44,219 bases of DNA, from IMG/VR virus record IMGVR_UViG_3300031241_000009, positions 1 to 44,219 of that record. One strand, given 5' to 3'. The notes beneath the pieces were generated by a model. It was given only the letters and a program-made list of their open reading frames with translations, had not been told where the DNA came from and did no database searches. The DNA comes from a virus. Shown here one piece after another: positions 3,720-44,219 of this stretch. A program made the translations under genes and the position numbers. The stretch's first letter is position 1; each line of letters begins with the position of its first letter.

Positions 3720-5099
3720 TCAGTGGGTGCTTGCGGCGGCGAGCCGCTTGGCCTTGCGTTGCGAGGGCAGGTCGATGCCGCACTCCCGCGCCAGATCGCA
3801 GACGCGCTTGTTGAACCACTTGCCCCGCGGCCAGTGCGTCTGTCCGTTGCGGGTCTGGACTTCGCGGAGGTCCGCCAGTTCCTGCTCATAGGCCGCCATG
3901 CGGCCGAAGATCAAACCCGCATCTTCGCGGCCCGATTGCCCGTAGACCAACTTCAGGTCGGCGGCGAAACCGAAAAGCCACTCGCGGCAGTCGGGGTCGT
4001 TGACCAGGCCGCGGAAGCGGATCACCAGCCGCTCTTTCTGCCGCTGCATCGTGGTGGCGTCCGCGATCGCCTGGATGCACGCGGCCAGTTTGCCCTCGGC
4101 CGGTTCGGCGGCGGTCCGCTGGCGATCCGTGGCTGCGCGGCAACGGTCGATGTGCGCCTGCGTCGCGGCCAGCAGCGCGGCTTCGTCGGCTTCGGCCGGC
4201 GGCCTCGCGTGTGTCTTTGGGTTCATTGGTTTCATTAGGTCATTGGAAACCATTGGATAGGATTCTTCTTTAGAAGAATCCAAAGACGCGGGCGCGTGCG
4301 TAGTAGACTGCGTGTCGGGCGGTTTTTCGGCCGATTTTTGGGCGCGGGGAATTCCCCGCGTGTTTGGTGGCGAAAGTGCGGGGAATTCCCCGCGTGTTTC
4401 CGGGCTCGGGGAATTCCCCGCGTGTCGTTTTTCCGCAGAAATCGGGGGTTTTTGGAGCGCGGGGAATTCCCCGCGCGGTCCCGATGCGGCTTGGAGCGCG
4501 GGGAATTCCCCGCGCGATTCTGACCGAAAGCGCGGGGAATTCCCCGCGTGTCCGGGAGTGAAAATGACCGAGGCGTGGAGAGTTCCCGCTGGATCGGCTG
4601 TCTCCAGCGGGTTGTCTCCACGCCTCGCTTGGGGCGCGGCTCCATCGAACGCGGCAGGGCAATTTGGTTCCCCGGTTGCACCGGGGGCTTCGGATCCCTG
4701 GCCGACACGTCCTTGTGAGTCGCGCGGGGCGGGCGTCACTTCCGCCCCGGTATCAATGATAGCATCGTCGGAAAAATTTGGCAGCACGAGCTGCGGATCG
4801 GGCTGGGCGGTGGCGTGCCCCGCAAACGGGCGGTAGATGTCCACCTTGTAGCGTCCGCCGCGATCGCGATTGCATTCGCGGATGTGGAACAGGTCGTGGA
4901 TGGCATGCAGCTTCTTGATCTGCGCGCGAATGCTCGACGGGTCGCGACCCAGTTCCTTGGCCAGCCATTTGGCGGTGAAAACGTAGCCTTCGCAGGGCTT
5001 GCCGCCGGCGGCCTCCCATACCACGCCGAAGAGCATGGTCGCAGGGTGTCCGATCTTTGGATTCTTGCGCAAATAGCGGATGTCTTTCCAAACGTCCAA
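3720..5099 (-). CDS. Replication-initiator-like protein with embedded iterons
   Basis: About 459 residues from a proposed TTG at 5099, preceded by GCGAAGGATTGCATC; the first ATG of the frame is 22 codons later. Residues about 5-90 look like a winged helix typical of replication initiators (MLFGVVWEAAGG..., then KWLAKELGRDPSSIRAQIKKLH). A proline/charge-rich linker follows, encoded by six palindromic repeats read in all three frames (AGNSPR, RGEFPAL, RGIPRA). The C-terminal helical region ends in WPRGKWFNKRVCDLARECGIDLPSQRK. An initiator with origin repeats inside its own gene is the arrangement of lambda O. Origin recognition is inferred, not shown. Confidence 0.65.
   Translation of the reverse strand: MDVWKDIRYLRKNPKIGHPATMLFGVVWEAAGGKPCEGYVFTAKWLAKELGRDPSSIRAQIKKLHAIHDLFHIRECNRDRGGRYKVDIYRPFAGHATAQPDPQLVLPNFSDDAIIDTGAEVTPAPRDSQGRVGQGSEAPGATGEPNCPAAFDGAAPQARRGDNPLETADPAGTLHASVIFTPGHAGNSPRFRSESRGEFPALQAASGPRGEFPALQKPPISAEKRHAGNSPSPETRGEFPALSPPNTRGIPRAQKSAEKPPDTQSTTHAPASLDSSKEESYPMVSNDLMKPMNPKTHARPPAEADEAALLAATQAHIDRCRAATDRQRTAAEPAEGKLAACIQAIADATTMQRQKERLVIRFRGLVNDPDCREWLFGFAADLKLVYGQSGREDAGLIFGRMAAYEQELADLREVQTRNGQTHWPRGKWFNKRVCDLARECGIDLPSQRKAKRLAAASTH
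4343..4548. repeat. Six palindromic iterons, candidate replication origin
   Basis: Six copies of the palindrome CGCGGGGAATTCCCCGCG (18 bases, some with one terminal base changed) are centred at about 4351, 4385, 4413, 4466, 4505 and 4539. Spacings are 34, 28, 53, 39 and 34 bases. They are not multiples of three, so the copies fall in three different reading frames of the surrounding gene. This is DNA-level repetition and recalls initiator-binding iterons inside lambda O. Confidence 0.8.
4569..4627. repeat. 59-base inverted repeat beside the iterons
   Basis: The outer arms CGAGGCGTGGAGA (4569-4581) and its complement (4615-4627) pair over 13 bases. A 3-base symmetrical internal loop follows, then inner arms CCCGCTGGA (4585-4593) and TCCAGCGGG (4603-4611), with a 9-base loop. 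It lies 21 bases from the last palindromic iteron and inside the same gene. A cruciform or single-strand structure at the origin is a reasonable guess. Confidence 0.75.
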
Positions 5100-5116
5100 G
5101 ATGCAATCCTTCGCTG

Positions 5117-5365
5117 CTAAGCTTCCTTGATCTCTTTGATTACTTCGTTCATGGCGTCTTGCGCCGCGCGGACCAGCCGCTCGATCTGCGCCGCGGTGCA
5201 TTCGACGCCCCGATATCCGGTCGCCATCGCGGCGGCGGTGGCCAGTACGACGCCCACAAGGGCGCTCGCCTCGGCCTCGTTGTCTGCTGGATGGCGGCGG
5301 AGCAGGTCTGTAATCTCCCGACTCGCCAGCATCAGCTTTGTCTGATTGACTCGCGGCGCGTTCAT
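5117..5365 (-). CDS. Small Ala-rich helical protein
   Basis: An 82-residue protein of unknown function. It has a hydrophobic Ala-rich middle (ASALVGVVLATAAAMA) and an amphipathic C-terminal helix. The ATG at 5365 is the final codon of a forward GACAGGAAG cassette, and longer upstream reading belongs to the preceding gene in another frame. It ends 17 bases before the proposed TTG start of the replication gene. Confidence 0.6.
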   Translation of the reverse strand: MNAPRVNQTKLMLASREITDLLRRHPADNEAEASALVGVVLATAAAMATGYRGVECTAAQIERLVRAAQDAMNEVIKEIKEA

Positions 5366-5390
5366 CTTCCTGTCCTCGATCTTTCTGTCA
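5363..5390 (-). repeat. GACAGGAAG cassette supplying a start codon
   Basis: In coding orientation it reads GACAGAAAGATC, GAG, GACAGGAAG-ATG. The first unit has lost its GGA. The TGA of the upstream gene overlaps the first GACAG and the last ATG starts the gene at 5117-5365, so the cassette is the entire spacer. Confidence 0.75.
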
Positions 5391-6525: not shown

Positions 6526-6552
6526 GACAGGAAAATGGGGGACAGGAACATA
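6526..6552 (+). repeat. GACAGGAAG-type cassette, reverse
   Basis: The plus strand reads GACAGGAAAATG, GGG, GACAGGAACAT, opposite to the genes around it. Its complement ends just before AGGAG, the ribosome-binding site of the 6248-6514 gene. The 90 bases from 6553 to 6642 show nothing recognisable. Confidence 0.7.
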
Positions 6553-7977: not shown

Positions 7978-8397
7978 TCATTCTTGCGGCCCCCGATTTT
8001 TGAGGAGCATCGCCCGTCCCTTACGATGCCGCTCGCTGTATTGCACCTGGTCGTAGTCGTAGCCCGCCGCGCATTGCAGACACAAGAATCGCAGCGGCCG
8101 CCCGCGGCGAATGGGGATCGCTTCGGCGCGGCGGATGGTCCAGGAGTCGGCCAGCACGATCGCCTCGCAGTCGCTGCATACGCGGGCCTGCGGATCGCCG
8201 CCGATGAGGTCGTGGCGGAACTCCTGCGGCAGCGCGCAGACGATGACGATCGCGTCCGCCGGCCAGTCCTTCAACGGCCGATTACCGTTGCCGTTTTGGG
8301 CCTGCTCCGCGGCGGGAACTTCAACCACCGGAGTACTGCTACTGTGTTCCGTTTGCCCTTCGGGCAAGCTTGGTAAGATGGGAGGTTGTAAATTCAT
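7978..8397 (-). CDS. Zinc-ribbon-like hypothetical protein
   Basis: A 139-residue protein with a disordered N-terminus (about 1-40) and two Cys pairs, CSDC and CLQC, some 35 residues apart, consistent with a treble-clef or zinc-ribbon fold. The C-terminus is basic. Family and role are unknown. Confidence 0.6.
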   Translation of the reverse strand: MNLQPPILPSLPEGQTEHSSSTPVVEVPAAEQAQNGNGNRPLKDWPADAIVIVCALPQEFRHDLIGGDPQARVCSDCEAIVLADSWTIRRAEAIPIRRGRPLRFLCLQCAAGYDYDQVQYSERHRKGRAMLLKNRGPQE

Positions 8398-9356: not shown

Positions 9357-9358
9357 TA

Positions 9359-9383
9359 TTTTCCTGTCCTCCATCTTCCTGTC
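9359..9383 (-). repeat. GACAGGAAG cassette before a start codon
   Basis: In coding orientation GACAGGAAGATG, GAG, GACAGGAAAA, followed by TAATG, whose ATG starts the 8913-9356 gene. The GGA here has near-optimal ribosome-binding distance. Confidence 0.75.
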
Positions 9384-9908: not shown

Positions 9909-10129
9909 GCTGGCACCGCGGGGCTTTCTTTGAGACTCTCGATGTAGCGATCGACGACGCGATTGTAGGACGCAAACACGTCCTGCCAATTCTTCCGCGC
10001 CTCTTGGACCGCCGCCAGTTCTGCCTCTCCGATCAGGTAGGCAAAACGCAGATCCTCGTACTGCCTTCCCAGCGCTTCCGCGGTTCGGCGGTAGCTCTTG
10101 ATGCGGGCTTCCGTTTTTGGGTCCCTCAT
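9905..10129 (-). CDS. Small helical protein downstream of csrA
   Basis: A 74-residue, largely coiled-coil-like protein (KTEARIKSYRRTAEALGRQYEDLR...). Two in-frame starts exist, 10129 and 10144, each preceded by ACAGGAA(A/G); 10129 is preferred because the five extra residues of the longer form are only cassette sequence. It follows csrA with the cassette as the whole spacer, so the pair is probably one operon. Function unknown. Confidence 0.6.
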   Translation of the reverse strand: MRDPKTEARIKSYRRTAEALGRQYEDLRFAYLIGEAELAAVQEARKNWQDVFASYNRVVDRYIESLKESPAVPA

Positions 10130-10154
10130 TTTCCTGTCCCCCATCTTCCTGTCA
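10127..10154 (-). repeat. GACAGGAAG cassette between csrA and next gene
   Basis: The csrA stop TGA is the first three bases of TGACAGGAAGATG. A second unit, GGGGACAGGAAA-ATG, gives the start codon of the downstream gene. The two GGA cores are 15 bases apart. The first ATG is also in frame. Confidence 0.8.
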
Positions 10155-10334
10155 GACTTCCGACGCCTCGGCCGCGATCCGCTCGGCGACCTCGGCCCGA
10201 TGCACGGGCACTTCCATCGGCGCGTCGATGCCCAGCCGCACGCGGCCCTCCTTGATCTCCAGGACCGTGATCGTCACGTCGCCGCGGTAGCCAATGTGGA
10301 TCACCTCTTCGAGCTTCCTTGATAGCACTAACAT
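10152..10334 (-). CDS. csrA: CsrA-family translational regulator
   Basis: The 60-residue product is full length for CsrA/RsmA. It begins MLVLSRKLEE, has VTITVLEIKEGRVRLGIDAP in the middle and PMEVPVHRAEV, which contains the conserved VHR whose Arg contacts the GGA of target RNAs. CsrA dimers bind GGA-containing sites, often overlapping the Shine-Dalgarno, and repress or activate translation. AAGGAGG with six bases to the ATG is a strong ribosome-binding site, unlike the GACAGGAAG starts of its neighbours. Homologues on phages, plasmids and integrative elements are known. Here the likely targets are the phage's own cassette-bearing mRNAs, host mRNAs, or both. Confidence 0.95.
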   Translation of the reverse strand: MLVLSRKLEEVIHIGYRGDVTITVLEIKEGRVRLGIDAPMEVPVHRAEVAERIAAEASEV

Positions 10335-10345
10335 GAAAAACCTCC

Positions 10346-10374
10346 TTGCATTGCCGTCCCGCCGTGGCTATATT
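10346..10374 (+). promoter_or_regulatory. Candidate plus-strand promoter divergent to csrA
   Basis: TTGCAT (10346-10351), a 17-base spacer and TATATT (10369-10374) make a good sigma70-type promoter pointing away from csrA. Its -35 lies close to the csrA ribosome-binding site. Confidence 0.5.
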
Positions 10375-10380
10375 GGCGCA

Positions 10381-10454
10381 AGAAGGCCGGCGGATTGACC
10401 TCCTTGCGCGTCTTCACTGGCCCCGGATGGCAGCACCAACTCCGGGGCCTTTTT
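10381..10454 (+). ncRNA. Candidate sRNA divergent from csrA
   Basis: A transcript from the promoter at 10346-10374 would run about 74 nt to an intrinsic terminator. It contains ACCTCCTTGC (10398-10407), an exact repeat of 10340-10349, and is therefore complementary to ten bases spanning the csrA Shine-Dalgarno. It also has two GGAT motifs (10392, 10425), one in a possible hairpin loop, so it could either pair with csrA mRNA or bind CsrA. No ORF of note is present. It is a prediction from promoter and terminator only. Confidence 0.5.
10419..10454 (+). terminator. Intrinsic terminator, plus strand
   Basis: Stem GGCCCCGGA (10419-10427) with TCCGGGGCC (10441-10449), a 13-base loop, and TTTTT directly after. 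It works only in the plus direction, although no plus-strand gene ends here. Confidence 0.75.
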
Positions 10455-11000: not shown

Positions 11001-11276
11001 TGCTGGCTCGGTCTACGCGCCGCACGCGGCCCGGATAGTCGCGGTTTGTTCCCGCTGAGGTATAGACGGGTCCCCAAACGTGACTATCCGGACCAGCGGC
11101 GTTCTCATACCGAATGAGGGTTCGGTTTGGCCGGATCCGGTCCCGCGCGGGACCTAAACAGAAGCGGCCGTTGCAAGCTCGTTGAAGCTCACAACGGTCC
11201 CATTGTAACAGGTGTCACAGGTCGGTCAAGGGGGATATCCCAAGAATCTTGGACAGAAAAAAGGACCAGGAAAAGC
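11001..11276. promoter_or_regulatory. Palindrome-rich control region
   Basis: This 276-base gap carries arms CCGGATAGTC (11031-11040) and GACTATCCGG (11082-11091) and a hairpin ACCGAA-TGAGGG-TTCGGT (11109-11126). Two adjoining palindromes follow, CCGGATCCGG (11131-11140) and GGTCCCGCGCGGGACC (11139-11154). It lies between two regulators (zinc/HTH protein and XRE repressor), so operators are likely; no binding protein can be assigned. Confidence 0.55.
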
Positions 11277-11681
11277 TTAGTCGCAAACGGAATCGATAGG
11301 CGCGCCGAAGTGAGCTTCGAGCTTTTCCCGATGGGCCGGAATCGGCTTTCGTAGTCCGCCAACATAACGGTTGATTGAGGCCCGGCAAATTCCCGTTGCA
11401 GCGGCGACGCGGCTCTGGTTCTCGTCGCGTTCAAGCATCAATGTTTTGATGCGTTTGCCAATACGACGGGCCTCACTACAGCCGACGGAACTCGGTTTTC
11501 GGCGTTTAAGAAGTCCTGTGCTCACGCTGGCATTGTACCCATTCCCGCGCCCGTTTGTCAACGGATTTGCGGTTTTGCCGCCGGTTTTCCCGTTTTTCGC
11601 GAGGTGCCGGCGGACCTGCTCTTTTTCCGCGGCGTCGAGCCGTTCGTAGGCCGAAACGATTTCTTTAACCTTCTTGGTCAT
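11277..11681 (-). CDS. XRE/Cro-CI-type repressor
   Basis: A 134-residue protein whose C-terminal 65 residues are an XRE-type helix-turn-helix (IGKRIKTLMLERDENQSRVAAATGICRASINRYVGG). The N-terminal part (EIVSAYERLDAAEKEQVRRHL) is helical and may serve in dimerisation, joined by a Gly/Asn-rich linker. Its place, divergent from a plus-strand gene and beside palindromes, fits a lysogeny repressor or Cro-like switch. No peptidase domain is present, so it is not a LexA-type repressor. Confidence 0.75.
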   Translation of the reverse strand: MTKKVKEIVSAYERLDAAEKEQVRRHLAKNGKTGGKTANPLTNGRGNGYNASVSTGLLKRRKPSSVGCSEARRIGKRIKTLMLERDENQSRVAAATGICRASINRYVGGLRKPIPAHREKLEAHFGAPIDSVCD

Positions 11682-12883: not shown

Positions 12884-12955
<72 letters not shown>

Positions 12956-13422: not shown

Positions 13423-13449
13423 GACAGGAAGATGGAGGACAGGAAGATG
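13423..13449 (+). repeat. GACAGGAAG cassette
   Basis: Plus-strand GACAGGAAGATG, GAG, GACAGGAAGATG between the convergent ends of the genes at 13177-13389 and 13465-13803. A palindrome TCCGCAATTGCGGA (13395-13408) and CACACGTGTG directly after it lie in the same gap. Here the cassette starts no gene. Confidence 0.75.
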
Positions 13450-42490: not shown

Positions 42491-42567
42491 GGGCCGCGGC
42501 GGGATTCGAACCCGCAACGTCACCCAGCATGGCAGCCAGGCCGTTCTACCGTTTGAACTACGCGGCT
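42491..42567 (-). tRNA. tRNA-Gly(GCC)-like
   Basis: The T arm GCGGG-TTCGAAT-CCCGC, D arm GTTC...GAAC and six of seven acceptor pairs are good. The expected tRNA-Gly anticodon loop CTGCCAT is present, but the stem CCTGG faces GCTGGG and pairs only with wobbles and an 8-base loop, and the first acceptor pair is A-C. It may be a decayed or unusual tRNA. The gene ending at 41619 starts 9 bases downstream. Confidence 0.6.
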
Positions 42568-43125: not shown

Positions 43126-43160
43126 AAGGCCGCATGGTTCACCCAGCATGCGGCCTTTTT
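43126..43160 (+). terminator. Intrinsic terminator in the leader of the plus gene
   Basis: AAGGCCGCA (43126-43134), 14-base loop, TGCGGCCTT then a run of T to 43160. It stands only 18 bases before the start codon at 43179, so it would stop transcription before the gene unless relieved. Confidence 0.8.
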
Positions 43161-43178
43161 CATTGGAGGGGGCCGTAA

Positions 43179-44087
43179 ATGTCTTTTAGCGATTCTGCGG
43201 TTATTTCCGGGCTACAATCCATGCACCTTGGGGCGCGGCAGCCGTCCGCGGCCGCGGTCAACCAACCTCCATCAGCGGCGTCGTCCGAATCGGCCGTCTC
43301 CGCGGCGGCTGGCGCGCCCCAGGTAGGTTCCTCTTGCCGAGAGGGACGGAGCGAAGCGAGCGTCGACCCGATCGTCCGCACCGCGCCGGAGAAGTACGGC
43401 CGGGCTATCGCGCCGGAAGCGACAGCGAAGGAAGCGGTAATCCCCGTCAAGGCCCATGTCCGGGGCAAAGCCAGCGAGGCGGAAGCGCCGGAGAAGAAGC
43501 CGGTGACGCTGGAGGCGATCGTCGCCGAATACCGCCGCTTCCAGCGTGCCGAAACGAAGCGGCATATCTTCCTGGGCTGGATGGTCGAAAGGTGGCTCGG
43601 CTGCCAGCCGGAGCGCAGCGAAGCCGAGCAATTGCCGCGCGCGGCAGCGATGATCGTGATTGCCGCCCGCATCGAGCGCGAGGGCCTGGCGGCGACCGCC
43701 CGGCCGCACCGCGATTTGAAGTGCCATCACGCCGCGCAGCTTTTGGGCGGCGAGGTGGAATCGCTGGCGATCGGTGCGATCTATCGCTTCCTGCCGCTCG
43801 TTCAGCCCGCCGGCGACGCCTGGCGGCTGTTGCCCGGTCGCGAGGACCAGGCCCGCGGATTATGGGCACGGATGCTCAAGGAAAAGCTCTCGGCGGACGC
43901 CGTGCGGAGCGCGGTTGAAAAGCTTTTGCCGCGCGCGGCAAAACTCTTGTGCCAATCGCCCAGCCGCCCGGCGCAAACGGTTTTCCGCATCCTGCCGACG
44001 CTCTCGGCGGAGGAACTGGCGGCAGTGATCCGGGCGGCGAAAGAGGCCCGGTCGAAGGCCCGGCAAGCCCCAGCGATCGCCGGCTAG
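43179..44087 (+). CDS. Hypothetical plus-strand protein
   Basis: A 302-residue protein. The first 105 residues are low in complexity (Ala/Ser/Glu-rich). Residues about 107-180 have TLEAIVAEYRRFQRAETKRHIFLGWMVERWLG and RHRDLK-like basic helices, and the C-terminal part is helical (LPTLSAEELAAVIRAAKEARSKAR). GGAGGGGG lies six bases before the ATG. The layout vaguely recalls partition or replication accessory proteins, but no family is recognised. It ends beside the 82-bp repeat. Confidence 0.6.
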   Translation: MSFSDSAVISGLQSMHLGARQPSAAAVNQPPSAASSESAVSAAAGAPQVGSSCREGRSEASVDPIVRTAPEKYGRAIAPEATAKEAVIPVKAHVRGKASEAEAPEKKPVTLEAIVAEYRRFQRAETKRHIFLGWMVERWLGCQPERSEAEQLPRAAAMIVIAARIEREGLAATARPHRDLKCHHAAQLLGGEVESLAIGAIYRFLPLVQPAGDAWRLLPGREDQARGLWARMLKEKLSADAVRSAVEKLLPRAAKLLCQSPSRPAQTVFRILPTLSAEELAAVIRAAKEARSKARQAPAIAG

Positions 44088-44093
44088 CATCCC

Positions 44094-44219
44094 GCGTGAC
44101 AGGTTTTCCGCGTGACGCTGCCGGCGTGACGACGCTGCGGCGCTTCCGGGCGTAAATCACCAGGCTAACGGCCTCGCGTGACAGGTTTTCCGCGTGACGC
44201 TGCCGGCGTGACGACGCTG
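44094..44219. repeat. 82-bp tandem repeat, right end (1.5 copies)
   Basis: Positions 44138-44219 are a full unit identical to 1-82. Positions 44094-44137 are the last 44 bases of a preceding unit. The array starts 7 bases after the stop codon of the plus-strand gene that ends at 44087. If the molecule is circular and the two 82-base copies are one and the same, the real array has one full unit flanked by two partial ones. Confidence 0.9.

Follow-up and report, generated by a model that had tools for sequence, protein, structure and literature searches.

A candidate antisense small RNA gene opposite the ribosome-binding site of a phage csrA gene

Analysis of a 44,219-base virus record (IMGVR_UViG_3300031241_000009; its whole length is referred to here as the window) identified a short promoter-to-terminator unit on the plus strand, opposite the start of the phage csrA gene. 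The unit is very probably a genuine transcription unit maintained by selection. Its best explanation, which we favour with moderate confidence on the basis of sequence and modelling, is an antisense small RNA that would block csrA translation through the Shine–Dalgarno (SD) sequence. As two other phages retain the same promoter-to-terminator unit, it probably represents genuine antisense control of the phage csrA.

The record carries tailed-phage head, portal, terminase and tape-measure genes, and is probably a complete genome, as it has a direct terminal repeat of 127 bp (1-127 and 44093-44219). A palindrome around GGGGAATTCCCC occurs six times at 4343-4548, with a spacing of ~30-50 nt, inside a long ORF (3720-5201); these copies look like replication-origin iterons inside an initiator gene. 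Rfam gave tRNA matches on the minus strand at 12884-12955 and 42491-42567, and only the latter was seen by ARAGORN, with an odd anticodon.

The csrA gene (10152..10334, minus strand) encodes a product of 60 aa that matches PF02599 with an E-value of 3e-21 and a score of 75.5 bits (cut-off 27). Among cellular genomes, the two nearest CsrA relatives identified were planctomycete, with 60-64% identity, which is weak evidence as a pointer to the host. A search for relatives of the neighbouring 174-aa protein found none. Copies of GACAGGAAGATGGGGGACAGGAAGAT are scattered in both orientations (1060-1085, 1300-1325, 5364-5389, 6526-6551, 9358-9383, 10128-10153 and 13423-13448), one of them just after csrA. 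The csrA ribosome-binding site, GCAAGGAGGU, is present at 10340..10349 on the minus strand and is the predicted target of the small RNA.

The plus-strand promoter is of the sigma70 type (10346..10374), with a -35 box TTGCAT at 10346-10351, a 17-nt spacer and a -10 box TATATT at 10369-10374; its -35 box shares positions with the csrA SD of the opposite strand. The intrinsic terminator (10419..10454) consists of GGCCCCGGA and TCCGGGGCC separated by 13 nt (10419-10449), followed by TTTTT at 10450-10454. Promoter and terminator are separated by 44 bases, and the stretch of ~74 nt that they delimit contains no gene. From these elements we infer a small RNA of ~74 nt (10381..10454, plus strand), with its start near 10381. 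A sequence-only reading of this DNA had proposed a promoter and a terminator bracketing a gene-free unit of this size, and both were confirmed at the positions it gave. It had further proposed that the RNA would be complementary to the csrA ribosome-binding site. This was borne out: ACCTCCTTGC is present exactly twice in the window, at 10340-10349, where it is the antisense of the csrA SD, and at 10398-10407, within the RNA. A DNA inverted repeat, GCGCAAGAAGG / CCTCCTTGCGC, spans 10376..10409 and reads on the minus strand as a csrA leader hairpin.

The pattern TTGNNN-17-TANANT was matched once on both strands of the 44 kb, and shuffled sequences also yielded ~1 match; taken by itself, the promoter is therefore not significant. 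Stems of at least 8 perfect bp with a T run were present at only two places in the 44 kb, both on the plus strand (10419 and 43126), and the majority of shuffles yielded none. The second of these (43126-43180) is the only other strong plus-strand terminator, and is located just before a conserved plus-strand ORF (43179-44087). Neither plus-strand element of the unit was listed by a consensus scan for promoters and terminators, because the cut-offs of that scan differ. No Rfam family matched the unit at the gathering score, and at E-values of up to 5 the sole match was weak, irrelevant and elsewhere. Comparison of the unit region with annotated phages gave no match.

The unit was present in two further viruses. 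The first, G007 (IMGVR_UViG_3300035696_001570), has a terminase (TerL) 75% identical to that of the window, and carries csrA with a matching upstream region. The second, L151 (IMGVR_UViG_3300010379_001097), carries a third unit in front of its csrA and was identified by a pattern scan. The scan required two copies of CCTCCTTGC, and the identity of the two copies in L151 is therefore partly built in; promoter spacing and terminator were not among the requirements. L151 has a TerL 23% identical to that of the window and different structural genes, with mainly early genes in common, and it carries an integrase; searches of the window and of G007 found neither a tyrosine nor a serine recombinase.

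TTGC and TANANT are held at a 17-nt spacing in all three viruses, with unrelated spacer letters (4/17, 7/17 and 7/17 alike, by hand count on an alignment of the three). The -10 box was kept as TATATT, TATAGT and TAAATT, the conserved letters being those important for a plus-strand reading. A corresponding -10 box is missing from the minus strand, where the hairpin is not followed by a T run either. The terminator stem was altered on both arms between the viruses (GGCCCCGGA/TCCGGGGCC, CGCCCGGGC/GCCCGGGTG and CGCCCGA/TCGGGCG). Within the transcript, CCTCCTTGCGC (10399-10409 in the window) is the one long invariant stretch, identical in all three viruses. The unit as a whole exceeds chance expectation because it is conserved entire in two divergent viruses. 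A functionless coincidence of promoter-like and terminator-like sequence would fit the weak -35 box and the ~1 promoter pattern expected per window; it is nevertheless very improbable, as three divergent viruses kept the spacing fixed while the terminator stem changed.

A protein-profile scan for viral csrA gave 66 loci, and the unit was absent from the ~60 viral csrA loci read, G007 and L151 aside. A search for host or prophage copies covered 199 genomes sampled from the phylum of G001; with model R1 it yielded only two weak matches, both of which read as coding sequence with no csrA and were put down to chance. Most further loci from the repeat-pattern scans were discarded as chance or coding repeats, and the palindrome matches L004-L006 were assessed by model score alone.

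The RNAs of the three viruses were folded from starts 5 to 8 nt past the -10 box. The window RNA is predicted to form two stem-loops, an anti-SD hairpin (10382..10415, plus strand) and the terminator. The predicted first stems were GAAGGC/GUCUUC (in the window), GAAGGC/GCUUUC and GAGGC/GCUUC, and all enclose the anti-SD CCUCCUUGC (10399..10407, plus strand in the window), which is located in a weakly paired loop and was on average half or more unpaired in the predicted folds of all three RNAs. As the alignment was fitted by hand, consensus covariation counts for little. When the RNAs were cofolded with the csrA start, CCUCCUUGC paired with GCAAGGAGG, the csrA SD, in all three viruses, with gains over the separate folds of 14.6, 5.4 and 12.7 kcal/mol. 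A base flanking this helix covaries, being A:U in the window and U:A in G007, and is unpaired in L151.

SD-bearing starts, of which many belong to spurious ORFs, were ranked by energy gain; the csrA start was placed 2/196 in the window, 15/188 in G007 and 16/128 in L151. It is among the better targets but was not top-ranked in any virus, so the anti-SD:SD pairing is not unique; the anti-SD also resembles the 3′ end of 16S rRNA, and any strong SD would suit it. In this GC-rich genome, targets could not be ranked by the unconstrained duplex energies of the loop arm. Support for the earlier proposal of a small RNA gene able to repress csrA via its SD comes from the predicted pairing and from three viruses having kept promoter, terminator and anti-SD.

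The proposal that the RNA sequesters CsrA fared differently. Two GGAU motifs are present in the window RNA, as had been noted (GGAT at ~10392 and ~10425), one in a loop region and the second within the terminator stem. The G007 RNA lacks GGA altogether and the L151 RNA has a single one, so the idea of a CsrA sponge is unsupported. Known CsrA sponges have several GGAs in loops. The phage RNA resembles CsrB/RsmZ in being a small RNA linked to CsrA, but it differs in lacking an array of GGA loops, and several conserved loop GGA motifs were not found. A CsrB/RsmZ-like sequestering role is accordingly very unlikely.

A strong promoter on the csrA strand, TTGACC-16-TACAAT (11202..11229, minus strand), is conserved, and the csrA transcript probably begins there. 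Matching promoters were present in G007 (TTGACG-17-GATAAT) and L151 (TTGACG-17-TATAAT), ~290 nt upstream in both, compared with ~860 nt in the window. The promoter is located downstream of a probable HTH regulator gene (11277..11681, minus strand; weak HTH matches), and HTH_3 scored above the cut-off at the corresponding place in G007 and L151. Directly after the promoter, a strong hairpin was observed (11130-11229), with U-rich sequence 3′ of it in G007 and L151; possible readings are an attenuator, a terminator serving the HTH gene and another small RNA. Transcription of csrA probably proceeds from this upstream promoter and across the plus-strand unit, and the small RNA would therefore also be antisense to the csrA leader, a point missed by the sequence-only reading.

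In the SD-antisense mechanism that we favour, the partly exposed CCUCCUUGC would pair with GCAAGGAGG at the csrA start and exclude ribosomes, and a csrA transcript initiated past the HTH gene would additionally provide a leader with which the RNA could form a long duplex. CsrA would be kept low while the small RNA promoter is active, and would be released when csrA-strand transcription takes over. Further considerations count against this mechanism: only three sequences are available, a full antisense duplex would tie the anti-SD to the leader copy and not to the SD, and the inverted repeat has a GCGC in its 5′ arm that is located upstream of the predicted start, where the small RNA does not explain it.

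The unit could instead act mainly by transcriptional interference and by a leader duplex cleaved by RNase III, in the manner of CopA, with the anti-SD secondary. Transcription from the csrA-strand promoter upstream would read through the unit, and the whole RNA is complementary to a leader made from there; the invariance of CCTCCTTGCGC within the transcript is, however, left unexplained, and we regard this alternative as unlikely. Still less probable is that the conserved element is part of the csrA message, as a leader hairpin with a decoy SD in competition with the genuine SD or as a second CsrA site for autoregulation. A second copy of GCGCAAGGAGG precedes the SD in each of the three leaders and forms a hairpin on the csrA strand, the GCGC arm would be accounted for, and in the window fold blocking of the decoy left the SD fully closed. 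The same blocking failed to close the SD in G007 and L151, and the plus-strand promoter and terminator would be unaccounted for. The decoy switch was rejected, as SD closure was seen in the window only. An upstream ORF using the second GCAAGGAGG as its SD was likewise discarded, as no properly spaced start codon was seen by eye in the three leaders.

At the sequence level, the unit has one hallmark of a cis-encoded antisense small RNA, namely its own promoter and terminator opposite the target gene. Plasmid leader antisense RNAs of the CopA/CopT type have two stem-loops, are 75-90 nt long and are antisense to the leader of the gene they control. The phage RNA is predicted to share the two stem-loops and probably the leader-antisense position, but has an extra SD-complementary segment, no leader peptide was found and there is no replication gene. 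Among phage RNAs, lambda OOP overlaps the 3′ end of cII, and P22 sar is located between ant and arc. The present RNA is similar in being a short, terminator-ended phage RNA opposite a regulatory gene, and differs in that its target is csrA and its conserved part is a second anti-SD copy outside the overlap. Phage antisense RNAs are reviewed in PMC5415839, and OOP is treated in PMC5869508. Phage-encoded csrA genes are described in PMC7366521, and PMC11879866 reports that knockdown of a phage csrA homologue lowers plaques; csrA is likewise on the phage in these cases, and keyword searches of these two papers revealed no antisense partner of csrA. The literature searches made likewise turned up no paper describing an RNA antisense to a phage csrA.

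A relaxed scan identified a comparable arrangement in an unrelated phage, L253, in which TTGTAA-17-TACAAT is antisense to the integrase SD, with a second copy of CCTCCTTG (the anti-SD repeat) and a terminator with six T; this unit spans the integrase start (8096-8164, minus strand), and the likeness of design counts in favour of the antisense reading. Of four more integrase loci inspected by eye, three (Faecalibacterium phage Roos, Flavonifractor phage Castelnaud and MT836934) have sequence resembling a promoter in the antisense direction, together with a T-run hairpin resembling a terminator, and no obvious anti-SD copy. Such antisense units over integrase starts were noted in unrelated temperate phages (L253, and L289, L290 and L292 upstream of int). 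It is possible, though we put this only tentatively, that there is an unnamed class of antisense RNAs in several temperate lineages, with a promoter overlying the ribosome-binding site of some key gene adjacent to the repressor (integrase or csrA) and the anti-SD sometimes repeated. If so, one short RNA would gate a decision gene and, in this lineage, a global host regulator. Phage-borne csrA genes are widespread, and a dedicated antisense RNA would mean a phage-timed takeover of the host post-transcriptional network, with a simple testable handle.
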